Shown here in pieces: positions 452 to 52,226 of a stretch of 64,000 nt of DNA. This DNA comes from Sulfitobacter sp. 20_GPM-1509m (GTDB taxonomy: Bacteria; Pseudomonadota; Alphaproteobacteria; Rhodobacterales; Rhodobacteraceae): assembly GCF_000620505.1 (NCBI RefSeq), contig NZ_JIBC01000015.1, positions 1 through 64,000 on the forward strand. Reading direction: 5' to 3'. Each line of letters starts with the position of its first letter. The stretch's first letter is position 1. The notes beneath the pieces are model-generated. The model was not told where the DNA came from, made no database searches, and was given only the letters and a program-made list of their open reading frames with translations. The translations under genes were made by a program, and so were the position numbers.

Positions 452-614
452 CGCGCGGAATCAAGGCCGCAGGCCGCCGCGCATCGCCGGGCCGCCCCAC
501 GGCACGGCGATTTGGTTGCTGTTGCGCGGGACGGATAGCTGGGATGTGCTTGGCTGCCATAAAGTGGCATGCACGACGGTCGGATCGCCGCACCTCGGCC
601 CGTCGATGCGCGGC
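452..614 (+). repeat. Structured intergenic repeat R1, copy A
   Basis: A 163-bp element that begins with CGCGCGGAATCAAGG. It then has a GGCC-GCA-GGCC mini-hairpin, a 19-nt arm at 476-494 (GCCGCGCATCGCCGGGCCG), an interior containing ATAAAGTGGCA, and the complementary arm at 596-614 (18 of 19 pairs). The same element recurs at 19331, 26391, 28274, 49134 and, inverted, at 51725-51886. No open frame is conserved among copies. The stretch 362-715 holds only this element and its flanks. Confidence 0.85.
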
Positions 615-715
615 TTTGAGAGCGGCAGCTTCGTCCGCATAGCGGACCCTCGCGCCTCCCGCAGCGAAGGTCTGGGTCGGCATGGCTTGCCGCCGCGCTT
701 CAGGAAAACCGGACC

Positions 716-1582
716 CTAGTGTCGCATTGGCATGGCATCCGACGCCTTGAGGTGGCGCAGTTTGTCGGGGTTGCGGGTGACATAGATTGCCCGGATCAGC
801 CCGTTCTCGATCTCCAGCGCCGTGGTCTGAAGCTGGCCGTCGCTTTCGCGGCTGATGCAGCCGGGCAGCCCGTTGATGTGCGTGAGTGCAATCAGCGTCG
901 AGCCGTTGTCGCGGAAGTGGTCGGCAAAGCCGGCGTGGGCCTGTACCACCGCGTCGCGGCCAAGGACCGGCTGGATGACCGTGGGCCGTTGTCCGCCGCC
1001 GTCCGCGTGCAGGCTGATGTCTTCGGCAAGCAGCCTGCGCAGTGCGCCCATGTCGCCCGCCCGCGACGCGGCAAAGAAGGCGGCGGCGATCTGTTGGCCG
1101 CGTGTCGCGTCGACGCTGAACCGGGCGTTGTCCTGTTGCACGTTCTGCCGCGCACGGGCGGCCAGCTGGCGGGCGGCGGCGGGGGTGCGGTCGATGATGC
1201 CCGAAACCTCGTCAAAGGGAACCCCGAACACGTCGTGCAACAAGAAGGCCGCGCGTTCGAGCGGGGACAGGCGCTCCAGCGCCAGCATCAGCATCAGGGT
1301 GATGTCCTCGGACGGGTCCGTGACCACCGGATCGGGCAGCCATTCGCCCAAGTAGACCTCGCGGCGGCGGGCGGTCGTGCGGTGCAGGTCCAGACACAGG
1401 CGGGTGACGATGCGGCGCAGATAGGCGGGCGGGGACTGGACCGACGCGGGGTCAACCGCCTGCCAGCGCAAGAACGCGGTTTGCACCACGTCCTCGGCAT
1501 CGGCGACGGATCCCAGCATCCGGTAGGCCAGTTTGACCAGCCCCGGCCGCGCGCTGTCAAAGATATGGGCGGGGTCGGTCAT
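716..1582 (-). CDS. ECF41-type RNA polymerase sigma factor with SnoaL-like C-terminal domain
   Basis: Extracytoplasmic-function sigma factor of 288 residues. Sigma region 2 lies at about 8-75 (LAYRMLGSVADAEDVVQ) and region 4 at about 100-150 (LSPLERAAFLLHDVFG). A SnoaL-like extension of about 120 residues follows. Three marks of the ECF41 group are visible: WLPDP at 81-85 between the sigma regions, DGGG at 194-197 and NPDKL at 271-275. In this group the extension replaces an anti-sigma factor and modulates activity. I chose the ATG at 1582, giving MTDPAHIF, because the upstream in-frame ATG at 1615 would overlap the neighbouring gene. ECF41 factors usually control an adjacent small oxidoreductase or decarboxylase gene, which fits the monooxygenase-like gene 11 bp upstream. 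Confidence 0.9.
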   Translation of the reverse strand: MTDPAHIFDSARPGLVKLAYRMLGSVADAEDVVQTAFLRWQAVDPASVQSPPAYLRRIVTRLCLDLHRTTARRREVYLGEWLPDPVVTDPSEDITLMLMLALERLSPLERAAFLLHDVFGVPFDEVSGIIDRTPAAARQLAARARQNVQQDNARFSVDATRGQQIAAAFFAASRAGDMGALRRLLAEDISLHADGGGQRPTVIQPVLGRDAVVQAHAGFADHFRDNGSTLIALTHINGLPGCISRESDGQLQTTALEIENGLIRAIYVTRNPDKLRHLKASDAMPMRH

Positions 1583-1593
1583 GGGGTCAGAGC

Positions 1594-1896
1594 CTATGCG
1601 GCGGGTTTCAGCCATTGCACATCCAGCTGCGTGATCTTCGGGTCACCCGCCAGGTAAGGGCGGGATCGGGCGAGGTATTCCAGATAGGACGGATGGTTCA
1701 GGAACGCCTGCGCCGCAGTTTGCGAACTGTAGGCTTGAAAGGCAATGACCACATCCGCGTCCTGCCCGAAGGAATAGGCATAGCTGATGTGGTCGGGATT
1801 GGCGGCGATGGCAGGTTGCATCAGCGCGTCCCAGGTTTCGCGCAGGGCGTCGCGTTTGCCGGGCAGGGTGCGGTGTTCGATAATCAGGCCGTACAT
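1594..1896 (-). CDS. Antibiotic-biosynthesis-monooxygenase (ABM) fold protein
   Basis: A protein of 100 residues that looks like a single dimeric alpha+beta barrel: an N-terminal strand (MYGLIIEHRTLPGKRDAL), a helix, SYAYSFGQDADVVIAFQ in the middle and a terminal strand. This is the size and pattern of ABM/quinol-monooxygenase-like proteins, which act on quinones or reactive small molecules without metal or flavin. It precedes the ECF41 sigma factor by 11 bp on the same strand, so the two are probably co-transcribed. ECF41 genes commonly sit beside such small redox genes, which makes this the likely regulatory target. The substrate cannot be told from sequence. Confidence 0.75.
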   Translation of the reverse strand: MYGLIIEHRTLPGKRDALRETWDALMQPAIAANPDHISYAYSFGQDADVVIAFQAYSSQTAAQAFLNHPSYLEYLARSRPYLAGDPKITQLDVQWLKPAA

Positions 1897-1990
1897 GGTG
1901 TCTCCTCATGCGGTTGCGCCGGGTGTGTCCCGGCATATGAGTAAGACGTTCGAAACGGGCGGGATGTGACATGGCGGACGGAAAATGACC

Positions 1991-2923
1991 CTAGGCCAGC
2001 GGTTTTGACAGCCCGTCCACCACCAGATTGCGCAGGCGTTGGGCCAGCGGGCTGAGCATGACGGATTTGCGCTGGATCAGGTGATAGGGCGAGATCACCA
2101 TCGGTTCCCGGACCGCAATCGCCTGTATCCCGCCCACGCCCGAGCTGCGGACCAGGTCGCCGACCTCGCTTGAGACGGGCGAGATCAGGTCGGAGGTTTG
2201 CAGATAGGCGATCATCACCAGCAGCGATGTGGTGGTCACAACGTCATCGGGCAGGGGGATGTCATGGGCGATAAACGCCTCTTCGACCGCGCGGCGCATC
2301 GGCGTGCCGGTGGCCTGCGCGACCCAGCCGTATCCGGCCAGATCGGTGATCGAGGGGCGGGCGATGCGGGTCAGGGGGTGGCCTGCGCGGATCAGGAATT
2401 CGGCGGTTTCATTGCGCCATTCCATGATGTCGAACGCGCGCGGGTCCAGGTCGGTGGGCACGCGGGCCAGCACAAAGTCGTATTCGCCGTGCAGCATGTC
2501 CTGCATCAGCGTGTCGCTGGGGCCGACGCCGACATAGACTTCGGCGCCTTCGATGTCCTGTTTCAGCCGCTGGATTGCGGGCACCACATAGGCAATCGCG
2601 GCCCCCGTCACCGACCCCACGCGCACGGTGCCGGTGCGGCCCGCGCCAAAGGCGGTGACCTCGTCCACAGTGTCGGCCAGCCCGCGCAACAGCCCGCCCG
2701 CGTGGCGGATCAGGACGCGGGCGATGTCGGTGGGCACCATCCCCTTGGGCGTGCGGGCGAACAGCGGCTGGCCCACCATCGCCTCGACCTCGGCCAGCAT
2801 CCGCGAGGCGGCGGGCTGGGTGATCGACAGACGCTGGGCGGCCACGGACAGCTGTCCGTGTTCGTCAATCGCGTGAATCAGCCGCAGGTGGCGCCATTGC
2901 AGGCGTGAGGTCAGGTCTTGCAT
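1991..2923 (-). CDS. gbpR: LysR-type regulator, GbpR-like
   Basis: LysR-type regulator of 310 residues. The winged HTH is at about 8-65 (LRLIHAIDEHGQLSVAAQRL, TQPAASRMLAEVE), followed by a periplasmic-binding-like effector domain that starts near 95. It is transcribed away from the chvE-gguAB genes with 168 bp between the two starts. This is the same arrangement as GbpR and chvE in Agrobacterium and Azospirillum, where GbpR activates the sugar-binding protein gene in response to L-arabinose, D-galactose or D-fucose. The symbol is given on that synteny plus the family, so the effector is inferred. Confidence 0.8.
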   Translation of the reverse strand: MQDLTSRLQWRHLRLIHAIDEHGQLSVAAQRLSITQPAASRMLAEVEAMVGQPLFARTPKGMVPTDIARVLIRHAGGLLRGLADTVDEVTAFGAGRTGTVRVGSVTGAAIAYVVPAIQRLKQDIEGAEVYVGVGPSDTLMQDMLHGEYDFVLARVPTDLDPRAFDIMEWRNETAEFLIRAGHPLTRIARPSITDLAGYGWVAQATGTPMRRAVEEAFIAHDIPLPDDVVTTTSLLVMIAYLQTSDLISPVSSEVGDLVRSSGVGGIQAIAVREPMVISPYHLIQRKSVMLSPLAQRLRNLVVDGLSKPLA

Positions 2924-3091
2924 CTGTCAGACATTCCATTTTTGCTATGCACCTGTCAACTTATGTAATTTGATCGCTATGTCCTGAAGATGTTAGCGTG
3001 GCGCCGGACGCAGAAAAATGTCCATCATTTTGTCCCGTACGCGGGACCTGGCCAACCCAAATGCGGCGCGGTCAGCTTTTGGGAGGAAGAC
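2924..3091. promoter_or_regulatory. Divergent gbpR/chvE promoter region
   Basis: This 168-bp region separates two divergent starts. It has an AT-rich core (about 2936-2985) against a GC-rich background, as expected for LysR-type sites and the two promoters. A strong ribosome binding site, GGGAGGAAGA, lies at 3081-3090 just before the chvE ATG at 3092. I could not define a unique T-N11-A operator by eye. Confidence 0.55.
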
Positions 3092-4156
3092 ATGAACAAA
3101 CTTATTTCGGGGCTTAGCGCCCTTGCGTTTGGCGTGGGTCTGATGACCGCGCCGGTCCTGGCTCAGGACAAGGGCACGATTGGCATTGCGATGCCGACCA
3201 AATCCTCGGCCCGCTGGATTTCCGACGGCAACTCGATGGTCGAACAGTTCGAGGCGGCAGGCTATACCGTTGACCTGCAATATGCCGAAGACGACATTCC
3301 CAACCAGTTGGCCCAGATCGAAAACATGATCACCAAGGGTGTCGATGTGCTGGTGATTGCCGCGATTGACGGCACCACCCTGTCGAACGCGCTGGAGAAC
3401 GCGCATTTCGCGGACATCAAGACGATTGCCTATGACCGGCTGATCCGCGACAGCGAATATGTCGACTATTACGCCACCTTCGACAACTTCAAGGTCGGCG
3501 TGCAACAGGCCAGTTCCATCGTCGACGGGCTGAAGGAACGGTTCCCCGATGTCAGCCCCTGGAACGTCGAGCTGTTCGGCGGGTCGCCCGACGACAACAA
3601 CGCCTATTTCTTCTACAACGGTGCCATGTCGGTGCTGCAACCGCTGATCGACGACGGCACCATCAACATCGTGTCCGGCCAGATGGGCATGGACACGGTC
3701 GGCACCCTGCGGTGGGACGGTGCGGTGGCACAGGCGCGCATGGATAACCTGTTGTCGGCGCATTACACCGACAAGGTCGTGCATGGCGTCCTGAGCCCCT
3801 ATGACGGGTTGTCGATTGGTATCCTGAGCTCGCTCAAGGGTGTGGGATACGGCTCGGGCGATCTGAAAATGCCCATCGTGTCCGGTCAGGATGCGGAATT
3901 GCAGTCGATCAAGTCGATCATCGCGGGCGAACAGTACTCGACCGTGTTCAAGGACACCCGCGAACTGGCCCGTGTGACCGTGGGTATGGTCGATGCGCTG
4001 CTGCAAGGCGGCGAGCCTGAGATCAACGACACCACCACCTATGACAACGGCGTCAAGGTTGTGCCGTCCTACCTGCTGGAGCCGGTGTCGGTGGATGCCA
4101 GCAACTACGAGGCGATCGTCATCGACTCGGGCTACCACTCCAAAGACGATCTGTAA
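3092..4156 (+). CDS. chvE: Multiple-sugar ABC transporter substrate-binding protein, ChvE-like
   Basis: Periplasmic sugar-binding protein of 354 residues. The signal peptide ends after VLA at residue 24. The mature protein opens with [19 protein letters not shown], followed by a two-lobed Peripla_BP_4 fold ([37 protein letters not shown] at the C-terminus). These segments resemble ChvE and MmsE, which bind arabinose, galactose, xylose and related sugars and deliver them to the GguAB transporter. The start at 3092 is set by GGGAGGAAGA immediately upstream. It is first in a likely operon with the ATPase, permease and catabolic genes. Confidence 0.92.
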
Positions 4157-4165
4157 GACCGGATC

Positions 4166-4181
4166 GCGATTGCAAAATCGC
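4166..4181 (+). other. Intercistronic stem-loop after chvE
   Basis: A perfect 6-bp stem, GCGATT and AATCGC, closes a GCAA tetraloop nine bases after the chvE stop. There is no U-tract, so it is not a terminator. Hairpins placed after binding-protein genes commonly protect the upstream mRNA, so that the binding protein is made in excess of the ATPase and permease. That role is inferred from position only. Confidence 0.5.
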
Positions 4182-4237
4182 CTGTCCCGCGCGCTGTGAA
4201 CGGTGCCGGGGCAGGTCGCAGGAATGGGGGCAGGGGT

Positions 4238-5758
4238 ATGACAACTCTTCTGGAAATGCGCGACATCACCAAGACCTTTCCGGGGGTCAAGGCGCTGGAC
4301 AACGTCAACCTGAAGGTGACCGAAGGCGAGATTCACGCGCTGGTCGGTGAAAACGGCGCGGGCAAGTCCACGCTGATGAAGGTGCTGTCGGGGGTTTATC
4401 CGCAGGGCACCTATGACGGTGACATTCATTACGACGGGCAGGTCGCGCGCTTTGGCGGGATCGCGGACAGCGAGGCGCTGGGGATCATCATCATCCACCA
4501 GGAGCTGGCGCTGGTGCCGTTGCTGTCGATTGCGGAGAACCTGTTTGTCGGCAACGAATGTGCCAGCAAGGGTGTGATGAACTGGCCCGAAACCTTTCGG
4601 CGCACCGAGGCGCTGTTGAAAAAGGTGGGGCTGAAAGAGGCCCCCGCCACGCCGGTGGACCGGCTGGGCGTGGGCAAGCAGCAACTGGTCGAGATCGCCA
4701 AGGCGCTGTCCAAGGACGTGCGGTTGCTGATCCTGGACGAACCCACCGCCGCGCTGTCGGAATCGGACAGTCAGGCGTTGCTGGATCTGTTGCTGGAGCT
4801 GAAGGCCGAGGGGGTGACCTCGATCATCATCAGCCACAAGCTGAACGAAGTGCGCCGCGTGGCTGACACCATCACGGTGATCCGCGACGGCGCGACGGTG
4901 TCGACGCTGGATGCGCGCACCGAAAGCATCACCGAGGACCGCATCGTGCGCGACATGGTGGGGCGCGACATGTCGCAACGCTATCCCGAACGGGAACGGC
5001 GTGCGGGTGACATGCTGATGGAGGTTCAGGGCTGGAACGTCTGGCACCCCGAACACGCCACGCGCCAGATGATCAAGGACATCAACTTTCACGTGCGCGC
5101 GGGCGAGGTCGTGGGCATTGCCGGGCTGATGGGTGCGGGGCGCACCGAGCTGGCGATGAGCCTGTTCGGCCGCAGCTACGGGCAGAACATCAGCGGCACC
5201 GTGAAGCTGAAAGGGCAGGCGGTGGACACCTCGACCGTGGCGGCGGCGATCCGCAGCGGGCTGGCCTATGTCACTGAGGACCGCAAGGAGCTGGGTCTTG
5301 TGCTGGAGGACACGATCCAGCGCAACATCACGCTGGCCAACCTGCGCGACGTGTCCAGTTCCGGCGTCATCAACGAGGCCGAGGAAACCAAGGTGGCCGA
5401 GCGGTATCGCAAGGCGATGAACATCCGCACGCCCAGCGTGTTCCAGAAGGTCATGAACCTGTCGGGGGGCAACCAGCAAAAGGTGGTTTTGTCCAAGTGG
5501 CTGTTTGCCGGCCCCGAGGTTCTGATCCTTGACGAGCCGACGCGCGGCATCGACGTGGGCGCGAAGTTCGAGATTTACGGGATTATCAACGCGCTGTCGG
5601 CGCAGGGCAAAGGGGTGGTCATGATCAGCTCCGAAATGCCCGAGCTGCTGGGCATGAGCGACCGGATTTACGTCATGAACGAGGGCCGGTTTGTCGGAGA
5701 GCTGGACGCATCCGAGGCCAGTCAGGAACGCATCATGTCGTTCATCGTCACAGATTAA
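4238..5758 (+). CDS. gguA: Sugar ABC transporter ATP-binding protein, GguA/MmsA-like
   Basis: Cytoplasmic ATPase of 506 residues with two ABC domains in tandem, the sugar-importer (CUT2) type. Domain 1 has Walker [10 protein letters not shown] at about 38-46 and Walker [12 protein letters not shown]. Domain 2 has the degenerate Walker [11 protein letters not shown] and an intact signature, LSGGNQQK, followed by [12 protein letters not shown] poor second Walker A is normal in this subfamily. The ATG at 4238 ([16 protein letters not shown]) is preceded by a purine-rich GGGGGCAGGGG. It powers the permease encoded 12 bp downstream and uses the ChvE-like binding protein. Confidence 0.92.
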
Positions 5759-5770
5759 GGGAGCGGCAGA

Positions 5771-6967: not shown

Positions 6968-6979
6968 GGGGCATTCAAG

Positions 6980-9648: not shown

Positions 9649-9684
9649 GCCCCGAGACATTTGAACACCCGAAAGGATCTCGCT

Positions 9685-10602: not shown

Positions 10603-10689
10603 CGGGCTGATCCGGCCAGACGAGTTGCATTCGGGCGCGAAATCAGGCTCTTGAAGGGTCAGGTTTCCCGGCCAAAGGTGCACCAGACG

Positions 10690-13177: not shown

Positions 13178-13468
13178 GGGCCGCGCCGGTTCCACGCCCG
13201 CACCTGCCAATCTGCCATTGATTGCGTGACAAAACCGGCCCGCACAGCGGACGGGGTGCCAGGGCATCCTCTTGGCGGTTCCGGGTAAACCTATGTTTAT
13301 CCGTTGTTTTTTTCCTCCGTAATGCACGGTTTCGGCAAGAATCCGTCAATTTACACCCATAGGTGGCAAGAGATCGCCCATTTTCCCGAGCGCTCCAAAG
13401 GGGCGGGGAACAACCGCGTCTGTCCGAGTGTTGCCCTCGCATAACCCACCTTGAAGGAGGAACTGGAA

Positions 13469-19330: not shown

Positions 19331-19402
19331 CGCGCGGAATCAAGGCCGCAGGCCGCCGCGCATCGCCGGGCCGTCCGCCGGCACGGCCCGACGATGCGCG
19401 GC
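19331..19402 (+). repeat. Structured repeat R1, copy B (short form)
   Basis: A 72-bp form of R1. The leader and both 19-nt arms are intact (18 of 19 pairs), but the interior is reduced to a 10-nt loop, TCCGCCGGCA, so the ATAAAGTGGCA segment is missing. It shows that the arms form a unit that can persist without the interior. The rest of 19233-19497 shows no gene. Confidence 0.85.
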
Positions 19403-19497
19403 TTAGCACTCTATTTCATGCGTCCGCTCTGTCCCGCACACCGCACCAAGACAGCTCAGCGGATGCACGTCGGCGCGCCAGGTCCATCCGCATCTGC

Positions 19498-23949: not shown

Positions 23950-23954
23950 AGGCC

Positions 23955-26390: not shown

Positions 26391-26553
26391 CGCGCGGAAT
26401 CAAGGCCGCAGGCCGCCGCGCATCGCCGGGCCGTCCGCCGGCACGGCGATTTGGCTGCTGTTGCGCGGGACGGATAGCCGGGATGTGCTTGGCTGCCATA
26501 AAGTGCCAGTCACGCAGGTCGGATCGCCGCACCACGGCCCGACGATGCGCGGC
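26391..26553 (+). repeat. Structured repeat R1, copy C
   Basis: Full-length 163-bp R1 copy. It has leader CGCGCGGAATCAAGG, a GGCC-GCA-GGCC mini-hairpin, 19-nt arms (left about 26415-26433, right 26535-26553, 18 of 19 pairs) and ATAAAGTGCCA inside. It lies between the MFS gene and the alpha/beta hydrolase and marks the left edge of the 26.4-28.5 kb islet. Confidence 0.85.
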
Positions 26554-26581
26554 TTCGCACTCCATTTCAAAGGGCAGCTAT

Positions 26582-26633
26582 GTCCGCGCTGCGGATCTTG
26601 GTACGGGGCGCGGCGAAGATCCGAATCGAGCCC
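26582..26633 (+). repeat. 52-bp repeat R3, copy 1
   Basis: A 52-bp unit with a 7-bp inverted repeat GGATCTT and AAGATCC around a GGTACGGGG core. Copies follow at 27527 and 28207. In this copy the variable stem pair is T-A. Confidence 0.85.
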
Positions 26634-26707
26634 AAACTACCTGGTGTTGCGGCAGGCATGAAAGTCCGCTATGCGGAAATGCAACACGCTCATCGTGGAG
26701 TAACCGG

Positions 26708-27469
26708 ATGCATCCATCGATCATACGGCGCACCCTACCGGGGTGGGGAACCACTTACGGCCCTTCCGATGAGGGAAAATCTTCAGCCATTCTGATCCTC
26801 CACGGCTCTGAAGGAGGCACGTCCGGTTGGTCTCATCGAACTGCTGCCCTTCTCGCGGCAGACGGTTTCTTGTGCTACCCCCACAGTTATTCGAAGGGGG
26901 GGAATGCTTGGAATGCTGGGCACATCGAAGACGTTGAAATCGAGCACACCGTCCAAGCCCTTTCTGCCCTAAGAAGTTTCGCGCCATGCAACGGGAAGGT
27001 TGCTGTTTATGGTGTGTCGCGCGGTGCGGAACATGCTCTGCTTCTTGCAGCCTTGATGAGCGAGGCGAATATGCAGGGCCAACCCGATTCAGTGGCCTGC
27101 TTGGCTGCCCCGGATGTCGTCTGTGGAGCGTTCGACGCGCGTTGCTTTCGTGATAGTGGCGACCCGGGCTGGCAACCATGGGATCCTTCACGGCGGGCTT
27201 GGATGTGGCAGGGATCGACGGACAAGCTGTTGCCGTCAGAGCCGATCAACGTGGAGGCCTATTCAGGTCCGCTCTTTTTATCTGTTGGGCTAAAAGACCA
27301 AACCTGGTCCCCGGAAATGACCAAAAGGCTACACAAGCGCAGAAAAGCCAATGGGAAGCCGGTTGAAGCCCACTACTACGCAGACGAAGGCCATCTCCCC
27401 GGCAGTGAGGGCGAGAACCGTCACTATGAGCTGTTGCTGTCCTTTCTCAAGCGAACAATTGGGCCATAG
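26708..27469 (+). CDS. Alpha/beta hydrolase, dienelactone-hydrolase or BAAT-like
   Basis: Serine hydrolase of 253 residues. The oxyanion-loop region is LILHGSEGG, the nucleophile S104 is in GVSRGAE, the acid is probably D197 (GLKDQTW) and the base H229 (DEGHLPG). The fold resembles dienelactone hydrolase or the C-terminal domain of acyl-CoA thioesterase/BAAT proteins. The ATG at 26708 follows GGAGTAACCGG. Base composition is clearly less GC-rich than the catabolic operons, and R1/R3 repeats lie on both sides, so it is probably acquired cargo. The substrate is unknown. Confidence 0.75.
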   Translation: MHPSIIRRTLPGWGTTYGPSDEGKSSAILILHGSEGGTSGWSHRTAALLAADGFLCYPHSYSKGGNAWNAGHIEDVEIEHTVQALSALRSFAPCNGKVAVYGVSRGAEHALLLAALMSEANMQGQPDSVACLAAPDVVCGAFDARCFRDSGDPGWQPWDPSRRAWMWQGSTDKLLPSEPINVEAYSGPLFLSVGLKDQTWSPEMTKRLHKRRKANGKPVEAHYYADEGHLPGSEGENRHYELLLSFLKRTIGP

Positions 27470-27490
27470 AACGCCCAGCGTTACTGGAAA

Positions 27491-27578
27491 GCAGCCATCG
27501 GCACAGCTGCAGCGAAAGGGCGTTTTGTCAGCGCTGCGGATCTTGGTACGGGGCGCGGCGAAGGTCCGAATCGAGCCC
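27491..27578 (+). repeat. Repeat R3, copy 2 with upstream extension
   Basis: The 52-bp unit at 27527-27578 has stem halves GGATCTT and AAGGTCC. The variable pair is therefore T opposite G, a wobble in RNA. Similarity to copy 3 extends about 36 bp further upstream. Confidence 0.8.
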
Positions 27579-27653
27579 TTATTGACCGATGCTGCGGGAT
27601 GCACGAATGGCCGCTTCATTGCGAGTCATGCACACAATCAATGCAAGTTGTTG

Positions 27654-28115
27654 TCACAAATGACCGCAGTGGCCTTCCTCGAAATCCCACGCGCCTTTTT
27701 GCTCTCCGCGTTCCAAAAACGCATACGCGATTTCGATGCCTACTTTCTCGGGAACGTCTACCGCGTACAGTTGGTATCCAAAGTCTCCGTGTTCGTATGA
27801 GCATCCAAGGCGCTCGAGTGGTTCCCAAAGTTCGGCAAACAGCGTTGGATTATGTTTGCCGTGCGAAACAAGAATTCGGTATGTGGAATGCCCAGATTTT
27901 GGACCGAGGCCGACAACTTTTATTTGGCCTTCAACCTGGCTCGTCATGACAGCGTCCCTTAAGCTGATGCCTTTTGCAAAGAACGGCGAATTCTCAAGCC
28001 GATGGACACCGGAACCAAGATTGGTTGCCCAAACACTTTCAGTTGAAAAACCATGCCAAGTGTCTGAGCCGAGATCAAATATGACCTTCTGCATTTGATT
28101 GTTTGTTGCGTTCAT
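27654..28115 (-). CDS. DUF4265 protein
   Basis: Protein of 153 residues whose segment SVWATNLGSGVHRLENSPFFAKGISLRDAV is, in pieces, the usual core of DUF4265 (VWAT, RLENSPFFAKG). No enzyme motif is visible. DUF4265 proteins are small solitary accessory genes of unknown role. Start may be the ATG at 28115 or the one at 28094 (MQKVIFDLG). It converges with the alpha/beta hydrolase and lies between R3 copies 2 and 3. Its base composition is AT-richer than the window average. Confidence 0.75.
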   Translation of the reverse strand: MNATNNQMQKVIFDLGSDTWHGFSTESVWATNLGSGVHRLENSPFFAKGISLRDAVMTSQVEGQIKVVGLGPKSGHSTYRILVSHGKHNPTLFAELWEPLERLGCSYEHGDFGYQLYAVDVPEKVGIEIAYAFLERGEQKGAWDFEEGHCGHL

Positions 28116-28170
28116 ATGTGTACGTTAGGTTGCGTCTGACGTTGTGTCACTACCTTAGACAAACCCTGAA

Positions 28171-28258
28171 GCCGCCATTGGCACCATCGCGGCGAAAGCC
28201 CGCTTCGTCCGCGCTGCGGACCTTGGTACGGGGCGCGGCGAAGGTCCGAATCGAGCCC
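28171..28258 (+). repeat. Repeat R3, copy 3 with upstream extension
   Basis: The 52-bp unit at 28207-28258 has stem halves GGACCTT and AAGGTCC, so the variable pair is C-G. With copies 1 (T-A) and 2 (T-G) this gives a full compensatory series. It abuts R1 copy D. Confidence 0.85.
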
Positions 28259-28273
28259 TTTCCGCATTCTACC

Positions 28274-28460
28274 CGCGCGGAATCGAGGCCGCAGGCCGCC
28301 GCGCATCATGCCTCAGGCATGTCTGCGACATGACGGGCCGTCCCCCGGCACGGCGATTTGGCTGCTGTTGCGCAAGACGGATATGTCGGATGTGCTTGGC
28401 TACCATAAAGTGCCAGTCACAGAGGTCGTATCGCCGCACCACGGCCCGACGATGCGCGGC
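28274..28460 (+). repeat. Structured repeat R1, copy D with extra hairpins in the left arm
   Basis: 187-bp R1 copy. The left arm is interrupted after GCCGCGCATC, where 27 bases replace three. The insert is made of two small palindromes, ATGCC-TC-AGGCAT and ATGTC-TGC-GACAT. The right arm (28442-28460) is intact. The same insert, with one base changed, is in copy E. Confidence 0.85.
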
Positions 28461-28641
28461 TTCGCGAATGGCAGCTAAGTCCCGCATAACTGCCGTTGGC
28501 CGTCAGGTTCGGCAACGATCACGCTTGTGGCCTGCGTCGGAGGTCCGGTCCGCAGTCTGTCAAAGGTCCGCGACGTTTCTCCCCACGAAACTTTGCGCCA
28601 ATCTGACCTGCCGCCGAAAATCGGGCTTGAACTCCGGGCAC

Positions 28642-39641: not shown

Positions 39642-39661
39642 TCCAGCCCTGGCATTCTGAT

Positions 39662-39691
39662 CGGGCGGGGCCGCTGGCCTCGCCCGTTTTT
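39662..39691 (+). terminator. Terminator-like hairpin between TAXI and permease genes
   Basis: An 11-bp stem with one mismatch (CGGGCGGGGCC against GGCCTCGCCCG) closes a GCT loop and is followed by TTTTT. It lies 20 bases after the binding-protein stop and 36 before the permease start. It would end most transcripts there, leaving binding protein in excess with some read-through. Confidence 0.75.
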
Positions 39692-39726
39692 GACTTTCAT
39701 CCTTACCAACTGCGCGGGGCCTGCAC

Positions 39727-41601: not shown

Positions 41602-41622
41602 ACCGAACGGAGCGTTTTCCAC

Positions 41623-43323: not shown

Positions 43324-43333
43324 GGGTCTGCCA

Positions 43334-44776: not shown

Positions 44777-44799
44777 CCGCCCCAGACAAGGAACCGCCG

Positions 44800-45429: not shown

Positions 45430-45493
45430 GGTGGTGATGTGGGTCTTCTTCGGGACCTTTGCCAAGTCCGCTGTGCGGGACATTGCTGCCCCC

Positions 45494-45682
45494 CACCAAA
45501 GCCCGGAATCAAGGTGCGTAGCACCGCCGGGCAGCGCCCGACCGCCCCATGGGCGGGCGCTTCCTCACCGTCTTGCGCCTCTTCTGCCGCACGCCAAGGC
45601 GGTGAGATAAAGTGGCATGAACCAAGGTCTCAGCGCCCACCCGCGGTCGGGCGCTGCCCTCTGTGGCAAGGTCACTCTGGCC
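45494..45682 (+). repeat. Structured repeat R2, copy 1
   Basis: A 189-bp element built like R1 but with other sequence. The leader is GCCCGGAATCAAGG, the mini-hairpin GGTGC-GTA-GCACC. The left arm GGGCAGCGCCCGACCGC is at 45529-45545 and pairs perfectly over 17 bp with 45643-45659. ATAAAGTGGCA lies inside at about 45607-45617. A sub-hairpin CCGCCC-CAT-GGGCGG follows the left arm. The gap 45430-45792 contains only this element. Confidence 0.85.
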
Positions 45683-45792
45683 TTAAACCGGACCTTCACC
45701 GCCACCCGACACCCCCCTGGACGCAAGCCTGTTGCGCGATCAAGGGAATCGCCTGTAGGCTGCAGCACACCCGCAACCGCCAGAGGTCAGCC

Positions 45793-46749: not shown

Positions 46750-46755
46750 ACCCGC

Positions 46756-46779
46756 CTGTCTCACTTCCGAGACAGTTTT
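46756..46779 (+). terminator. Stem-loop between regulator and aldehyde dehydrogenase
   Basis: CTGTCTC and GAGACAG form a perfect 7-bp stem around ACTTCC, followed by TTTT. It lies 7 bp after the regulator stop, so it may be its terminator. The same inverted repeat could instead be the binding site of the GAF-Fis protein in front of the aldehyde dehydrogenase. Confidence 0.5.
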
Positions 46780-46878
46780 CCCGAACTTTCAGTTTCCCCC
46801 TGATGACGGCAGCCCCGCGCCCCGTCACCTTGAGCGCAATCCGGGAGGGAGACCCGGTATTCTCAGGAGGAACCACAC

Positions 46879-48402
46879 ATGAAAGATCTCGCACATACCG
46901 AATCCGGCACCTACACATCGCCGTTCAAAACCCGCTATGACAACTTCATCGGCGGCACATTCGTCGCCCCGGTGAACGGGCGCTATTTCGAAAACGTCAC
47001 GCCGATCACCGGCGAAAAGATCAACGACTGCGCCCGCTCGGACGCCGCTGATGTCGAACTGGCGCTGGACGCCGCCCATGCTGCCAAGGGTGCCTGGGCC
47101 AAGACCTCGGTCACCGAACGCGCCAACCTGCTGCTGAAAATCGCCGATGCGATTGATGCGAACCTTGAGCTGCTGGCGCAGGCCGAAACATGGGACAACG
47201 GCAAGCCGATCCGCGAAACCATGGCCGCCGACATTCCGCTGTCCGCTGACCACTTCCGTTACTTTTCCAGCGTGCTGCGCGGGCAGGAAGGGTCAATGAG
47301 CGAGATCGACGCCGACACCGTCGCCTATCACTACCACGAACCGCTGGGCGTGGTCGGCCAGATCATCCCGTGGAACTTCTCGATCCTGATGGCCGCGTGG
47401 AAACTGGCCCCCGCATTGGCCGCCGGCAACTGCGTGGTGATGAAACCCGCCGAACAGACCCCCGCCGCGATCATGGTGCTGGCCGAGATCATCGCCGACA
47501 TCCTGCCCGCCGGTGTGCTGAACATCGTCAACGGCTACGGGGCCGAGGTCGGCGCGGCGCTGGCCACGTCCAAACGCATCGCCAAGATCGCCTTTACCGG
47601 CTCGACCGCAACGGGCCGCACGATCATGAAAGCCGCCACCGAAAACCTGATCCCCGTGACGCTGGAACTGGGCGGCAAAAGCCCGAACCTGTTCTTTGCC
47701 GACATCATGCGCGAGGATGACGCGTTTCTGGACAAGGCGGTCGAAGGGTTCGTTCTGTTCGCCTTTAACCAGGGCGAGGTCTGCACCTGCCCGTCGCGTG
47801 CGCTGGTGCACGAGGACATCTACGACGCCTTCATGGAGCGCGTCATTGCACGGGTCAAAGCGATCAAACACGGCGACCCGCGCAACCCCGAAACCATGGT
47901 GGGCGCGCAGGCCAGCAAGGCGCAGCAGGACAAGATCCTGTCCTATTTCACCATCGGCCGCGAAGAGGGCGCCGAGGTGCTGATCGGCGGCGCGGCGGCA
48001 GAGTTCACCGGCGAGTTGTCGGGCGGCAACTATATCCAGCCGACGATCCTGAAGGGTCACAACAAGATGCGCGTGTTCCAGGAGGAAATCTTTGGCCCCG
48101 TGGTGTCCGTGACCACCTTCAAGGACGAGGCCGAAGCCCTCGCGATTGCCAATGACACCATGTACGGGCTGGGCGCCGGCGTGTGGTCGCGCGACATGAA
48201 CACCTGCTACCGCGTCGGCCGCGCGATAGAGGCGGGCCGGGTCTGGGTGAACAACTACCACGCCTACCCCGCCCACGCGGCCTTTGGTGGCTACAAACAG
48301 TCGGGCATCGGGCGTGAGAACCACAAGATGATGCTGGACCACTACCAACAGACCAAGAACCTGCTGGTCAGCTACAACCCCAACAAGCTGGGCTTTTTCT
48401 AA
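46879..48402 (+). CDS. NAD-dependent aldehyde dehydrogenase, ExaC/AcoD-like
   Basis: Aldehyde dehydrogenase of 507 residues. [11 protein letters not shown] holds the general-base Glu and GEVCTCPSR the nucleophile Cys. [21 protein letters not shown] is the NAD-binding stretch. The opening ([16 protein letters not shown]) and the end (LGFF) match the ExaC/AcoD group that oxidises acetaldehyde and related short aldehydes. AGGAGG precedes the ATG. It stands behind the GAF-Fis regulator and is closed by a strong terminator. Confidence 0.9.
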
Positions 48403-48414
48403 GATCCGGCGCAG

Positions 48415-48442
48415 CGGCCCCCCGATCCGGGGGGCCGTTTTT
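48415..48442 (+). terminator. Rho-independent terminator after aldehyde dehydrogenase
   Basis: A perfect 10-bp stem (CGGCCCCCCG and CGGGGGGCCG) closes an ATC loop and is followed by TTTTT. It begins 13 bp after the stop at 48402. Confidence 0.92.
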
Positions 48443-48459
48443 CATCCAACGGTGACGGC

Positions 48460-48735
48460 CTAGGGCCACATCTGCGCCGCATGCAGCACACGCAACACCG
48501 TGACGGCCACTTTGGTTTCGGCATAAACCACGATGTAATTGGGCCGCACCACCAGCTCGCGCGTGCCCGCCACCCGACCGGATCGCCCGCGTTTCGGCTG
48601 GTCTGGCAAGGCGGCGACCTTGGTTTCAATCTCTGACATCAGCGCCAGTGCCGCATCGGGATTGTCATCCGAAATGTAATCGACAATCGCCATCAGGTCG
48701 GCAACCGCCGGAGCCGTCCAGTTCAGATCAGCCAC
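48460..48735 (-). CDS. ParE/RelE-superfamily toxin
   Basis: Toxin of 91 residues with the ParE/RelE pattern: NWTAPAVADLMAIVDYI at the N-terminus, then ALPDQPKRGRSGRVAGTRELVV and the YIVVYAETKVAVTVLRVLHA strands. The GTG at 48735 overlaps the antitoxin stop by eight bases, a normal arrangement. A TTG start at 48750 is possible. ParE members poison gyrase and RelE members cut mRNA. The segment RELVVRPNYIVVY is more ParE-like. On a plasmid this pair would aid maintenance. Confidence 0.85.
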   Translation of the reverse strand: MADLNWTAPAVADLMAIVDYISDDNPDAALALMSEIETKVAALPDQPKRGRSGRVAGTRELVVRPNYIVVYAETKVAVTVLRVLHAAQMWP

Positions 48736-49021
48736 GGCGCTTGGCTTCAATCCGCGCGCGGGCGTCCTGCATGACCTGATCGTGCGGCGTGGTCGGGCGC
48801 GGATCGGTCAGCGCCTGCTGCACCTTGGCGCGAAACCATGCGTCATAAGCGTCCGGGTCGGCGGTCAGCCCCGCAGGCAACCCGCCCTCGGCAGCCACCC
48901 GCGTCAACAGGATGCGCACCGCATCCGACAAGGTCAGCCCGACACCCGCCAGGGCATCAGCGGCTTGCGACTTCAGGGCATCGTCCACGCGGACGTGCAG
49001 CATCGAGGTTTGGGCGGGCAT
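48728..49021 (-). CDS. RelB/DinJ-family antitoxin
   Basis: Antitoxin of 97 residues. The ribbon-helix-helix segment MLHVRVDDALKSQAADALAGVGLTLSDAVRIL (in pieces) is typical of RelB/DinJ. The C-terminal half should bind the toxin. The ATG at 49021 has AGGAGA eight bases upstream. It precedes and overlaps the toxin gene. Its promoter carries a 20-bp palindrome suited to autorepression. Confidence 0.85.
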   Translation of the reverse strand: MPAQTSMLHVRVDDALKSQAADALAGVGLTLSDAVRILLTRVAAEGGLPAGLTADPDAYDAWFRAKVQQALTDPRPTTPHDQVMQDARARIEAKRRG

Positions 49022-49051
49022 GGCAGGCTCTCCTGTGGTCACGGGACCATA

Positions 49052-49071
49052 TGTAACTCAATTGAGATACA
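49052..49071. promoter_or_regulatory. Candidate autoregulatory operator of the toxin-antitoxin pair
   Basis: TGTA-N-CTCAATTGAG-N-TACA is a 20-bp palindrome with one unpaired position on each side, 31 bp upstream of the antitoxin ATG. Ribbon-helix-helix antitoxins bind such short palindromes. The call is by position and symmetry only. Confidence 0.55.
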
Positions 49072-49133
49072 AATCAAGGGTGGGCGAGCCCGTTGAAGGC
49101 CGGTCCCGCCGTCCTTGATCGCTAACTGAATTT

Positions 49134-49319
49134 GCGCGGAATCAAGGCCGCAGGCCGCCGCGCATCATGCCGCAGGCATGTCTGCGACATGACGGGCCGT
49201 CCGCTGGCACGGCGATTTGGCTGCTGTTGTGTGTTGTCGTTAGCTAGGATGTGTTTGGCTGCCATAAAGTGGCAGGCACTCAGGTCGGATCGCCGCACCA
49301 CGGCCCGACGATGCGCGGC
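49134..49319 (+). repeat. Structured repeat R1, copy E with extra hairpins in the left arm
   Basis: 186-bp R1 copy with the same inserted hairpin pair as copy D (ATGCC-GC-AGGCAT and ATGTC-TGC-GACAT) at the same place in the left arm. The interior loop has diverged (TGTGTTGTCGTTAGCTAGG), but ATAAAGTGGCA and the right arm at 49301-49319 are intact. It fills most of the gap between the antitoxin and pcaJ. Confidence 0.85.
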
Positions 49320-49357
49320 TTGGCGATCAAATGCTAAGTCCGCATAGCGACCACCCG

Positions 49358-50047
49358 TCACCCCAGCTCCGGCACCACCAGATCACCCACTTCACCGTCG
49401 CGGTGCAGTTCCGCACCCGTCACCGACTGCAGATCCTCCAGCGACACCGCCGCCAGCTTCTCGCGCAGCACAAAGCGTCCGCCGGTCACGTCCACCACGC
49501 ACAGCGAGGTATAGACCCGCGTCACACAGCCCACGCCGGTCAGCGGCATGGTGCAACTCTCGACCAGCTTGGGCGCGCCCTTCTTTGTCACGTGATCAGT
49601 GATCACCGCCACCCGTTTCGCCCCATGCACCAGATCCATCGCACCGCCCACCGCAGGCACGCCACCGCGCCCGGTGGACCAGTTCGCCAGATCGCCGTTC
49701 TGCGCAATCTCGTAGGCGCCCAGGATCGCCACGTCCAGATGCCCGCCGCGCACCATCGCAAAGCTGTCGGCGTGGTGGAAAAATGCGGCACCGGGGTTCA
49801 GCGTGATCGCCTTTTTGCCCGCGTTGATCAGGTCCCAGTCCTCGTCCCCCGCCGCAGGGGCACGGCCAAAGCCCAGCACGCCGTTCTCGGTGTGAAACAC
49901 CGCCTCGCGCCCCTCGGGCTGGAACTTGGCCACCATCTCGGGAAAGCCGATGCCAAGGTTGACATAGGCACCGTCCTCGATGTCCTGCGCCGCCCGCCAT
50001 GCGATTTGCGCGTTGCTCAGTTGAATATCGTTCAGATCAAGGCTCAT
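49358..50047 (-). CDS. pcaJ: 3-oxoadipate CoA-transferase subunit B
   Basis: Beta subunit of 229 residues of a family I CoA-transferase. AYVNLGIGFPEMVAKF is the N-terminal family signature, and the catalytic Glu lies in HTENGVLGFG. The ATG overlaps the stop of subunit A by four bases. Subunit A is of the PcaI type, so the pair should move CoA from succinyl-CoA to 3-oxoadipate at the end of the protocatechuate branch. Acetoacetate (ScoAB) is an alternative substrate. No other pca genes lie in the window. Confidence 0.8.
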   Translation of the reverse strand: MSLDLNDIQLSNAQIAWRAAQDIEDGAYVNLGIGFPEMVAKFQPEGREAVFHTENGVLGFGRAPAAGDEDWDLINAGKKAITLNPGAAFFHHADSFAMVRGGHLDVAILGAYEIAQNGDLANWSTGRGGVPAVGGAMDLVHGAKRVAVITDHVTKKGAPKLVESCTMPLTGVGCVTRVYTSLCVVDVTGGRFVLREKLAAVSLEDLQSVTGAELHRDGEVGDLVVPELG

Positions 50048-50757
50048 GGGTACACCGCCTCTTGCCGGTTCAGGACTTCTTCCTGTTGGGGGTTGGGAAC
50101 ATGGACCACGCGGTTGACGAAAATCCCCGGCGTGATCACGTTTTCAGGGTCCAGATCGCCCGCCGCCACCACATGCGACACCTGCGCGATGGTCACCGCC
50201 GCCGCCGTCGCCATCACGGGGTTAAAGTTGCGCGCGGCCATGCGGTAGGTCAGGTTGCCCATCGGGTCCCCCTGCTCGGCCTTGATCAGCGCAAAATCCG
50301 CCTTCAATCCGCGTTCCTGCACATACATGCGCCCGTCGAACTCTGCCACCGGCTTGCCCGTCGCCAGATCGGTGCCATAGCTGGTGGGCGTGTAGAACGC
50401 CGGTATCCCGGCACCGCCCGCGCGGATGCGTTCGGCCAATGTGCCTTGGGGCACAATCTCCAGTTCGATGCCGCCCGCCAGATAGAGATCGGTAAACACC
50501 TTGGGATCGGCAGAGCGCGGGAACGAACAGATCAGTTTCGCCACCTGCCCCTGTTCGATCAGCGCCGCCAGCCCCACGTGCCCGTTGCCCGCGTTGTTGT
50601 TCACAACGGTCAGGTTTTTTGGCCCTGCGTCAATCAGCGCATGGATCAGCTCGATCGGCGCGCCCGACCCGCCAAAGCCGCCGATCATCACGGTGGCCCC
50701 GTCGGGTATGTCGGCCACGGCCTGCGCTGCGGTGGTCACTGTCTTGTCCATATGCAT
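50044..50757 (-). CDS. pcaI: 3-oxoadipate CoA-transferase subunit A
   Basis: Alpha subunit of 237 residues. GATVMIGGFGGSGAP is the CoA-transferase signature. VVNNNAGNGHVGLAALI, ICSFPRS and NPQQEEVLNRQ fit PcaI better than ScoA. I used the ATG at 50757. A second ATG follows at 50751. It faces an IclR regulator with 105 bp between starts, an arrangement common for pca genes. Confidence 0.82.
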   Translation of the reverse strand: MHMDKTVTTAAQAVADIPDGATVMIGGFGGSGAPIELIHALIDAGPKNLTVVNNNAGNGHVGLAALIEQGQVAKLICSFPRSADPKVFTDLYLAGGIELEIVPQGTLAERIRAGGAGIPAFYTPTSYGTDLATGKPVAEFDGRMYVQERGLKADFALIKAEQGDPMGNLTYRMAARNFNPVMATAAAVTIAQVSHVVAAGDLDPENVITPGIFVNRVVHVPNPQQEEVLNRQEAVYP

Positions 50758-50817
50758 CCCCGGTTTGATCCTCTCCGTCTGATGTCCGGGATCGCGGGGC
50801 ATCGGGCAAGGGTTTTC

Positions 50818-50843
50818 GTTCGCATATTGAAACTTGTTCGCAT
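50818..50843. promoter_or_regulatory. Candidate IclR operator between pcaI and the regulator
   Basis: GTTCGCAT occurs twice, at 50818-50825 and 50836-50843, 18 bp apart. The first forms an imperfect inverted repeat with ATTGAAAC. PcaR/PcaU-type IclR proteins bind short repeats of this kind in divergent pca promoters. Confidence 0.5.
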
Positions 50844-50862
50844 CGCGATAAGATCGGTGCGC

Positions 50863-51618
50863 ATGGCGAACAAAACAGACATCATCGGATCATTGGCCAA
50901 GGGGCTTCAGGTCCTCGAATGCTTTGGCAGCGACCGGCCCCGCCTGTCGGTTGCCGAAGTGGCCAGCCTGACAGGACAGGACCGCGCGTCGGCGCGGCGC
51001 TGCCTGCTGACGCTGCACCACATCGGCTATGCGGCCTATGACGGCAAATATTTCAGCCTGACCCCCCGCGTCCTGCGGCTGGGCATGGGGGCGCTGGCCG
51101 CCCTGCCGCTGCCGCAGATCGTGCAGCCGTGGCTGGACCAGTTGTCCGAGCAGATCGGACAGTCGTGTTCCGTGTCGATGCTGGACGACACCGAAATCGT
51201 CTACCTCGCCCGCGCGGCACAGCGGCGGGTGATGTCCATCGGCCTGATGCCCGGATCGCGGCTGCCCGCCCATTGCACGTCGATGGGCCGCGTGTTGCTG
51301 GCCGCCCTGACCGAGGAACAGGCGCAGGCGGTGATCGACGCCTCGGACCTGACCCCGCGCACGGTCCATGCCCGCCACGACCCCGCCGAAATCATGGCCG
51401 AGATCGCCCGCGTGCGCGGACAGGGCTTTGCCGTGATAGATCAGGAGGTCGAGCTGGGCCTGCGGTCGCTGGCGGTGCCGATCATGGACGCCAAAGGCCG
51501 CGTGGTTGCCGCGCTGAACATCGGCATGGCCAGCCTGCACGCCACCCCCACAGAACTGCGCGACACATACCTGCCCGCCCTGCTGAAGGTCCAGGAGGGG
51601 CTGCGCCGGGTGCTGTAA
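50863..51618 (+). CDS. IclR-family regulator, PcaR/PobR-like
   Basis: IclR regulator of 251 residues. The N-terminal winged HTH has LAKGLQVLECFGSDRPRLSVAEVA and RASARRCLLTLHHIGY. The effector domain has RLPAHCTSMGRVLLAAL and VIDQEVELGLRSLAVPI, the usual ligand-pocket segments of PcaR/PobR. Divergence from pcaIJ suggests it activates those genes in response to an aromatic-pathway intermediate such as 3-oxoadipate. Confidence 0.87.
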   Translation: MANKTDIIGSLAKGLQVLECFGSDRPRLSVAEVASLTGQDRASARRCLLTLHHIGYAAYDGKYFSLTPRVLRLGMGALAALPLPQIVQPWLDQLSEQIGQSCSVSMLDDTEIVYLARAAQRRVMSIGLMPGSRLPAHCTSMGRVLLAALTEEQAQAVIDASDLTPRTVHARHDPAEIMAEIARVRGQGFAVIDQEVELGLRSLAVPIMDAKGRVVAALNIGMASLHATPTELRDTYLPALLKVQEGLRRVL

Positions 51619-51724
51619 ACGCTGTTGCAAGGTCGGGCCGTGCCGGGCACTCCGAACTGGTCCTTCGACAAGTACGCGAAGGCCTGCTGAGCGGACGGAA
51701 CTGACGTTTGAAATGGAACGCGAA

Positions 51725-51886
51725 GCCGCGCATCGTCGGGCCGTGGTGCGGCGATCCGACCTGCGTGGCTGGCACTTTATGGCAGCCAAGCACATCCCAG
51801 CTATCCGTCCCGCGCAACAGCGGCCAAATCGCCGTGCCGGCGGGCGGCCCGTCGATGCGCGGCGGCCTGCGGCCTTGATTCCGCGC
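51725..51886 (-). repeat. Structured repeat R1, copy F (inverted)
   Basis: 162-bp R1 copy on the minus strand, with leader at 51886 and arms at 51845-51863 and 51725-51743. TGCCACTTTAT of the plus strand corresponds to the conserved ATAAAGTGCCA. It stands head to head with R2 copy 2, 106 bp away. The gap 51619-52294 holds only these two elements. Confidence 0.85.
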
Positions 51887-51992
51887 CTAGAACCTGCGGA
51901 AAGGGCTCTTTCCTGCCCTTCGCTGCGTTGGCAGGCATGATCGGTGTCGAAACGGACGGCCAACGGCAGCTATGCGGGACGTTGCGGACGTC

Positions 51993-52226
51993 CACCAAAG
52001 CCCGGAATCAAGGTGCGTAGCACCGCCGGGCAGCGCCCGACCGCCCGTCACGCCGGAGGCGTGCCGAATATGAATGGCGCACCTTTGGTGCGACGGGCGG
52101 GCGCTTTCTCACCGTCTTGCGTCAATTCACCCACACGCCAAAGATCAGAAATAAAGTGGCACGAACCGACGTGCCGATGCCCACCCGCGGTCGGGCGCTG
52201 CCCTCAGTGGCAAGGTCACTCTGGCC
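51993..52226 (+). repeat. Structured repeat R2, copy 2 with extended apex
   Basis: 234-bp R2 copy. Its leader, arms and AATAAAGTGGCA match copy 1. The small CCGCCC-CAT-GGGCGG hairpin of copy 1 is here opened at its tip and extended by about 45 bases. The extension forms two further hairpins, CACGCC-GGA-GGCGTG and GCGCACC-TTT-GGTGCG, closed by GTC and GAC. Confidence 0.85.

Follow-up and report, generated by a model that had tools for sequence, protein, structure and literature searches.

Two arm types of a structured extragenic repeat family in Rhodobacterales, targeted by an IS110 element

A 64,000-nt stretch of the genome of Sulfitobacter sp. 20_GPM-1509m (bases 1–64000 of contig C13, NZ_JIBC01000015.1, 77,257 bases long, in a genome of 4.74 Mb; hereafter the window) carries eight copies of two repeats, R1 and R2, which constitute a real, order-specific family of structured extragenic repeats. 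The repeats have a fixed architecture and covarying arms, lie between genes with an excess where genes meet tail to tail, are present or absent and exchanged R1 for R2 at orthologous sites, and are entered by an insertion sequence of the IS110 family at a fixed point. On balance we favor the reading that R1 and R2 are two arm types of one extragenic palindromic repeat family of approximately 160 nt in the Rhodobacterales, constrained as a folded strand and serving as a landing pad for IS110, and we regard this reading as probable. The family resembles repetitive extragenic palindromic (REP) and enterobacterial repetitive intergenic consensus (ERIC) elements, with an RNA-like architecture, and was not found described in the literature searched, which comprised open-licence papers only.

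Copies of R1 and R2 in the window and the genome

A preliminary description of the window had listed eight repeat copies, and all eight places were found: R1 on the forward strand at 453, 19332, 26392, 28275 and 49134, an inverted R1 at 51725–51886 on the reverse strand, and R2 on the forward strand at 45494 and 51993. Three R1 copies have the short form (453..616 and 26392..26555, both +, and the inverted copy, 51722..51886, −) and two the long form with a 24-bp hairpin insert (28275..28462 and 49134..49321, both +), while the copy at 19332..19404 (+) has a deleted interior and keeps the module and arms. R2 is present in a short form (45494..45663, +; stem GCCCGG/CCGGGC, arms GGGCAGCGCCCGACCG/CGGTCGGGCGCTGCCC) and in a long form with a 45-bp insert of two hairpins (51993..52204, +). 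In the R1 copy at 453, the 5′ module spans 453–482 with its hairpin at 465–475, followed by the arms, ATAAAGTGGCA at 559–569 and the end of the 3′ arm at 614. The 5′ module of the R2 copy at 51993 lies at 52000..52031 (+) and consists of the stem strand GCCCGG, the loop AATCAA, the hairpin GGTGC-GTA-GCACC and the closing strand CCGGGC.

The two motifs described as shared by the copies are less uniform than first stated. The 5′ motif GGAATCAAGG is exact in seven of the eight copies and reads GGAATCGAGG at 28279; the interior motif ATAAAGTGGCA is exact in four and replaced by ATAAAGTGCCA in three, and the copy at 19332 has no interior. Taken by itself, the 10-mer GGAATCAAGG is weak evidence, with eight matches at up to one mismatch in the window and 2 of 100 shuffles reaching eight. 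The long repeats are not due to chance, as shown by the best own-genome BLAST matches besides the queries, at E 1.5e-74 (92% over 192 nt) for R1 and E 1.5e-70 (85% over 230 nt) for R2. The genome yielded 42 BLAST pieces for R1 and 42 for R2, which were merged by eye into about 36 and about 28 places, respectively, some of them fragments.

Contig C13, a 77-kb replicon, holds at least 9 of the approximately 64 copies in the genome, far over its share. A tandem array of three R1 at a spacing of about 149 bp, with one 5′ module found, lies at C2:284525-284987 (loci L018, L029 and L030), and R2-like tandem triples were seen in two other genomes with spacings of 226 bp (G263, contig C24) and 207 bp (G182, contig C86). 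A truncation bias of the retroelement type was considered and dropped, since partial own-genome copies can be missing either side.

A ruler-like architecture common to both types

On the strand on which the repeats were first described (hereafter the described strand), the 5′ module of both types comprises a 6-bp stem, a loop ANTCAA on one side only and a short-looped GC hairpin. The stem, GCGCGG/CCGCGC in R1 and GCCCGG/CCGGGC in R2, encloses the 5′ hairpin and had been overlooked in the preliminary description, as had optional hairpin inserts of 24 bp in R1 and 45 bp in R2 at one place in the 5′ arm. The closing strand of the module stem doubles as the first part of the long arm and can pair with the 5′ end or the 3′ arm, though not with both at once. 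The arm pairing read by eye agrees with the earlier count, 18 of 19 positions in the R1 copy at 453 and 17 of 17 in R2.

R1 and R2 follow one ruler-like plan of module, arms, an ATAAA motif at about 106 nt from the module start and an arm end near 159. ATAAA was located at 106 in 14 of 22 own R1 modules (five more at 130 with the insert) and in 15 of 23 own R2 modules (four more at 151 with the insert); across both types, 38 of 45 own modules had it at 106, or further in by the length of the insert. Among relatives, it was found at 104–110 in 114 of 155 R1 modules and at 102–109 in 19 of 26 R2 modules, where random DNA of 62% GC is expected to contain ATAAA in 2.4% of 100-bp stretches. Of 65 tabulated copies, R1 and R2 taken together, 59 had the end of the 3′ arm at 158–166 and four more, with the 45-bp insert, at 204; the table keeps only rows with well-matching arms. 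This spacing stays fixed while the interior sequences of R1 and R2 differ. The two types grade into each other, based on copies that join R1 ends to R2 arms (L270, L275, L282 and L283) and on compact R2-like forms, about 80 nt long, in which two hairpins are retained and ATAAA and the TTGATT loop are lost (L276, L277, L278, L279 and L281). The hairpin insert occupies the identical arm place in several genera (L119, L133, L181, L190, L213 and L221) and is of at least four sequence kinds, those of L119, L181 and L221 being alike.

Covariation of the arms

Pairing was assessed in an alignment of 100 R1 rows, composed of 3 copies from the window, 21 loci of different genera found by BLAST and 76 loci found by an exact-pattern scan. 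As 83 of the 100 rows are exact to the scan pattern, the first 34 positions of these rows are fixed except one; the double changes in the arms lie downstream of the positions fixed in this way. Locus L111, which has no 3′ arm, was left out, as were copies longer than 168 or shorter than 160 nt, copies with N, and copies whose arms matched in fewer than 9 of 18 letters.

In the long structure, 93.3% of cells were paired, and 14 pairs were altered on both sides compared with 5.2 in shuffled alignments; none of 500 shuffles scored as high, and slid versions of the structure came nowhere near. Five arm pairs (columns 39-158, 40-157, 43-154, 54-151 and 59-146) vary on both sides and never break, as illustrated by columns 40-157 with GC in 83 rows, CG in 11, AU in 5 and UA in 1. 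The outer arm pairs are looser, with 33-164 unpaired in 33 of 100 rows and 36-161 in 55 of 100. The alternative local structure also exceeded its controls, less strongly (7 double-change pairs vs. 2.7), and RNAalifold, run unaided on the same alignment, proposed 24 pairs, 11 of which had double changes. Hence, the conserved pairing with an unpaired motif that the preliminary description had read from the window holds across many genera, and compensatory changes are in excess in the arms, the opposite of the alignment outcome that the description had named as refuting it. The companion statement that no protein frame is conserved was borne out for R1, for which 28–42 of 100 rows were open per frame vs. 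30–42 in shuffled rows. Covariation of this kind cannot separate RNA from single-stranded DNA.

Strand bias and a possible RNA near gene ends

Imperfect pairs in the arms were mostly A·C on the described strand, which corresponds to G·U on the complement (71 vs. 14, and 13 vs. 1 in the 21 rows found by BLAST; two badly paired positions, 31-154 and 34-151, were left out of the count). This wobble bias suggests that the constrained fold is that of the complementary strand. The consensus fold energy points in the same direction (−47.3 on the complement vs. −34.8 on the described strand), as does gene orientation: with codirectional neighbors, the complementary strand was sense in 52 of 80 contexts (p = 0.01; 31 elements with neighbors more than 700 bp away were dropped). 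The p values for strand are optimistic, as alignment rows are related. The strand bias does not separate RNA from single-stranded DNA.

These observations bear on a rival explanation, namely that the complementary strand, transcribed from the gene upstream, forms a structured RNA in the 3′ regions of mRNAs that would terminate, stabilize or regulate the transcript. Such an RNA would fold into a long stem-loop, whose large loop contains CUUUAU, and a 3′ stem-loop with UUGAUU; the 3′ arm and the 5′ stem would be alternative partners of its middle strand, making a two-state switch possible. Fixed lengths with a free interior sequence, and double changes above shuffles in both alternative stems, fit this proposal together with the wobble bias, the consensus energy and the sense orientation, and the long unpaired interior shows the opposite substitution trend (G>A 6.9%, C>T 14.1%). 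However, in a second, small set of five unpaired positions the G>A excess runs as it does in the arms (17 vs. 10 per 100), so that mutation bias may contribute to the wobble bias; own R2 copies are reversed, the complementary strand being sense in 2 of 7; and single-sequence fold energies are equal between strands (51 of 100). The presence/absence and R1-for-R2 exchange at orthologous sites described below also oppose an indispensable, gene-specific role. A function of R1/R2 as RNA near gene ends is plausible, and as a full account of the family we hold it to be a tentative possibility.

IS110 insertions at a fixed point of the module

On plasmid pDSM107133_h (NZ_CP085162.1), an IS110 element splits an R1 copy, with GCGCGGAATCAAG abutting TATCCGTCTTGG on one side and GTCTGAGAC abutting AAGGCCGCAGG on the other. 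The same two junctions were found in R1 copies on NZ_CP054603.1 (L293) and in a genome of the same genus (L239, genome G298), and in an R2 copy on NZ_CP085155.1 (L294); contig C9 of G298 equals pDSM107133_h over 3454 bases. The flanks of the four insertions, three in R1 and one in R2, are all different, and all four lie at a fixed point inside GGAATCAAGG, reading GGAATCAAG joined to TATCCG on one side and GAGAC joined to AAGG on the other. The entry point in these relatives is the CAAG of the module motif. Neither this role of the motif nor the strand bias had been noticed in the preliminary description. In another genus, a broken IS110 relative (L094; 61% identity, 129 residues) has the first junction only. 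Further traces were seen on NZ_CP054608.1, which carries an R1/R2 fusion with 14 letters of the IS110 end, and whose ortholog of the R1 copy at 49134 reads GCGCGGAGACAAGG, the GAGAC of which resembles the IS110 end. R1/R2 are the target of an IS110 element, which is the best-supported role that can be stated for them.

Read in the orientation of the insertion sequence, the target is GCGGC-CT-TGATTCC, and a CT core within its common letters CTTG is possible. The noncoding region before the transposase gene has a predicted fold with an internal loop, the sides of which, GCGGCCA and GTAATCA, fit the halves of the R1 target in six of seven letters each, the left in the same sense and the right as complement. 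Exact matches of 8 and 7 letters occurred jointly in 7 of 2000 dinucleotide shuffles, and separately in 79 and 205. In IS621, the left guide comes first. The targeting is probably RNA-guided. The guide sense observed here is the one published for IS621, whose core is CT, in the available text of the IS621 report (PMC11208160); that bridge RNA system likewise has a left and a right guide on two loop sides. R1/R2 differ from it in being the target and not a bridge RNA themselves, and the guide match here is a predicted one.

At E 1e-60, this transposase was matched in 16 of 394 genomes of the taxonomic family and not in the own genome. General targeting of the motif by IS110 elements was rejected, as none of 20 more distant IS110 loci, taken from the 16 genomes, holds exact GGAATCAAG and one-mismatch forms are scattered over eight of them.

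Gene context and taxonomic range

Based on crude gene calls made with our own script, gaps of 200–800 bp were convergent in 38 of 83 cases with an element and in 18 of 107 without (Fisher p = 2e-5). Overall, about half of the elements are in convergent gaps (70 of 145 R1; 89 of 188 R1 and R2 in a second count). The multi-copy, extragenic location showed nine crude overlaps with predicted open reading frames among R1 contexts and one among R2 contexts. Of 96 plasmid records, 60 were listed, mostly near-identical Pseudosulfitobacter plasmids, and in these no annotated feature overlapped the match.

With the best two candidates scored per genome, R1 was detected in 100 of 295 genomes of the taxonomic family (one per genus), in 79 of them below E 1e-5. 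Some of the 21 positives at E 1e-5 or weaker may be chance matches, because 13 of 240 genomes drawn from the class gave short matches at 3.5e-5 to 8e-4. In that class draw, full-length R1 matches occurred only in the own genome; the short matches in the 13 other genomes (at most 61 letters, E 3.5e-5 or weaker) were taken as chance, and at least two other genomes of the family gave no R1 match. Among 292 genomes drawn from the order, R1 was present in 119, all in the same family. R2 matches were found in 166 of the 295 family genomes, many in the arms only. The exact 33-letter module occurs in at least 111 stretches in named genomes, and the 80 records listed among the matches are Rhodobacterales by name, two of the names having been checked separately. 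The host range is a large group of mostly marine bacteria. As to a phage origin, a 25-letter pattern had no exact match in viral contigs, and phage records gave no match.

Presence, absence and exchange at orthologous sites

The window is homologous over most of its length to Pseudosulfitobacter plasmids, at about 91–97% identity in long pieces, and was compared with the plasmids NZ_CP054608.1, CP069022.1 and NZ_CP085162.1. At the site of the R1 copy at 19332, CP069022.1 carries an R2 and NZ_CP054608.1 a full R1. The R1 copies at 26392 and 51725 are both missing at the orthologous sites in CP069022.1, which carries an additional R2 beside the R1 of window position 453. Near 55330–55800, the four plasmids have R1, R1, R2 or a gene. 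The small gene at 55330–55800 of the window is flanked on both sides by sequence resembling R1 ends, GACCCGCGC and CGCTTCGCG, and may, as judged by eye only, encode a GFA-domain-like protein. A 1.7-kb segment at 26556–28274 lies between two R1 of the same orientation; the segment and both R1 are missing from CP069022.1, which has a different short gene in its place.

In this genus, R1 and R2 alternate with a third repeat, which is degenerate, intergenic and about 80 bp long (GGCAGCTWTGTCCGCATAGCGGAC ... GCAGCGAAGGTCCGGTTTGAGCCC). It was seen at 380–450 and 617–700 of the window and at the flanks of many own copies, R1 and R2 joining it in opposite orientations; its start motif matches once in the window (624–647) and its 12-letter end motif is not above chance. 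The junctions of presence and absence are mostly inside this third repeat, and recombination therefore cannot be told from insertion.

The same junctions lend some support to an explanation without transposition, in which R1/R2 would be ancient static repeats rearranged through homologous recombination among copies and through deletions mediated by IS110. The R1/R2 fusions, the IS110 end left at the fusion in NZ_CP054608.1, and 19 neighbor pairs that recur between loci, in some cases around R1 at one locus and R2 at another (counted without a control), are in line with it. Yet these 19 pairs were all that was found among 219 elements, and a near-exact 33-letter module across many genera requires either spread or strong constraint. 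We consider a static origin unlikely. That the same gene 3′ ends host R1 or R2 according to genus is not claimed, although several of the 19 pairs have this appearance, as about seven shared pairs would be guessed to arise by chance.

In the reading that we prefer, of two arm types in one folded, IS110-targeted family, the element would act as a folded single strand complementary to the described strand, whether transcribed near the 3′ ends of genes or present as single-stranded DNA. It would spread as the passenger of some enzyme or by recombination, the routes proposed for REP elements with their composite forms, bacterial interspersed mosaic elements (BIMEs), and for ERIC. Its conserved end would be read by the bridge RNA of the IS110 element, in which case the repeats would be landing pads and break points for the rearrangement of plasmids and chromosomes.

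Several results count against this reading. No mobilizing enzyme for R1/R2 was found, target-site duplications are unreadable in this genus because copies sit inside the third repeat, and several of the plasmid differences are explicable by third-repeat recombination or by IS110. The R2 copies of relatives were convergent in 7 cases vs. codirectional in 15. As for the guide, its fit to the left half of R2 is poor, and one extra left-guide mismatch was seen in the IS copy at L293, despite the location of that copy in an R1. Given the absence of the exact motif from the distant loci, the IS110 link is shown for one IS subgroup only.

A more far-reaching version, that R1/R2 represent a new class of dispersed, structured RNA or single-stranded DNA elements found throughout the order, with a fixed 106/159-nt ruler, interchangeable arms, mutually exclusive stems and a complementary strand acting near gene 3′ ends, parasitized by an RNA-guided IS110, seems doubtful to us. 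If true, one mobile structured element would be the programmed landing pad for another. R1/R2 bring together three questions: how palindromic repeats spread without RAYT (REP-associated tyrosine transposase), whether such repeats function as RNA close to gene ends, and how an RNA-guided recombinase chooses among multi-copy targets. With an architecture kept while its sequence drifts, the family makes a case for measuring selection on structure in dispersed repeats. It is also a natural multi-copy target for work on IS110 in marine bacteria and may help to explain plasmid rearrangement in roseobacters.

A GANTC site in the module

GANTC is the methylation site of CcrM, and hemimethylation at Dam sites gates some insertion sequence ends. 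The GGAATC of the module contains GANTC, which is intact in 44 of 48 own modules and, among relatives at loci obtained other than by the exact-pattern scan, in 51 of 68 modules. Of the six loop positions, the N varies most, with 17 of 48 substitutions (p = 0.0015; 114 of 116 loops, two more-changed ones being dropped), and the own genome encodes a CcrM homologue (PDB 6pbd, E 1e-166). This is a hint of a methylation link, and it raises the alternative that R1/R2 are CcrM-controlled DNA sites at which hemimethylation of GANTC after replication would gate protein binding or movement. Against it, the other loop positions vary too (6, 9, 8, 8 and 0 substitutions), the NCBIfam CcrM score of 644.7 bits is below the curated 830, GANTC is no rarer outside the modules (62 in the 64-kb window), and the rows are related. 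A controlling role of CcrM is accordingly given little credence.

Comparison with known repeat families

The remark in the preliminary description that the family was not recognizable agrees with our searches, in that no named match was found in Rfam or in the open-licence literature searched. In Rfam, no match reached the gathering threshold in the window, the best in 51600–52300 having an E value of 1.1. The suggestion of a RAYT-like gene on the chromosome did not hold: the head motif with a hairpin, the tandem arrays and the extragenic location resemble REP/BIME and would suit a Y1 transposase that reads hairpin and head motif and moves the element, in RAYT-type or IS200-like single-strand transposition, but no Y1_Tnp gene was found in the own genome (the search control was positive in 5 of 14 genomes), and Y1_Tnp was not associated with R1 over 295 genomes (9 of 100 R1-positive vs. 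21 of 195 R1-negative, p = 0.69), which leaves this route very improbable. An autonomous parent with an open reading frame between module halves was not recognized either. Isolated right halves gave no usable list, as their pattern also hits the left arm; a right half was missing within 230 nt from 31 of 214 left modules, of which three had a right-like match within 5 kb and several reached the ends of their loci.

REP units measure 20–60 nt and have a GTAG/GGAG head. Like REP/BIME, R1/R2 are extragenic, dispersed, palindromic, common between convergent genes and targeted by IS110 family elements. Unlike REP, they are about 160 nt long, have the head G[CG][CG]CGG-ANTCAA instead of a GTAG/GGAG-like one, occur in a genome without RAYT, and combine an internal ruler of fixed length with an ATAAA motif that is left unpaired. 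R1/R2 were not filed as REP, since the RAYT and size tests failed. The IS110 family elements that target REP include IS621, ISPpu9/10 and ISPa11, as given in the available part of PMC1525189. By analogy, the IS110 insertions in R1/R2 parallel these known cases, with a new repeat.

Miniature inverted-repeat transposable elements (MITEs) are short, non-coding and dispersed, as are R1/R2. In contrast to MITEs, R1/R2 lack terminal inverted repeats, nothing at the 3′ end corresponds to the 5′ module, and no parent transposon or duplication was seen, the junctions lying inside the third repeat. ERIC elements, or intergenic repeat units (IRUs), of enterobacteria are long imperfect palindromes that recur in similar form at unrelated places in several genera within an order, and no mobilizer is known for them. 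Compared by description only, R1/R2 share with them the long imperfect palindrome, the unrelated loci, the occurrence in genera of one order and the lack of a known mobilizer, and differ in taxon, in having two arm types and in the asymmetric 5′ module. The HRC-8-4 motif is likewise structured, restricted to Rhodobacterales and located between genes; according to the available text of PMC8632094, it occurs mainly between cco operons, whereas R1/R2 are dispersed and multi-copy.

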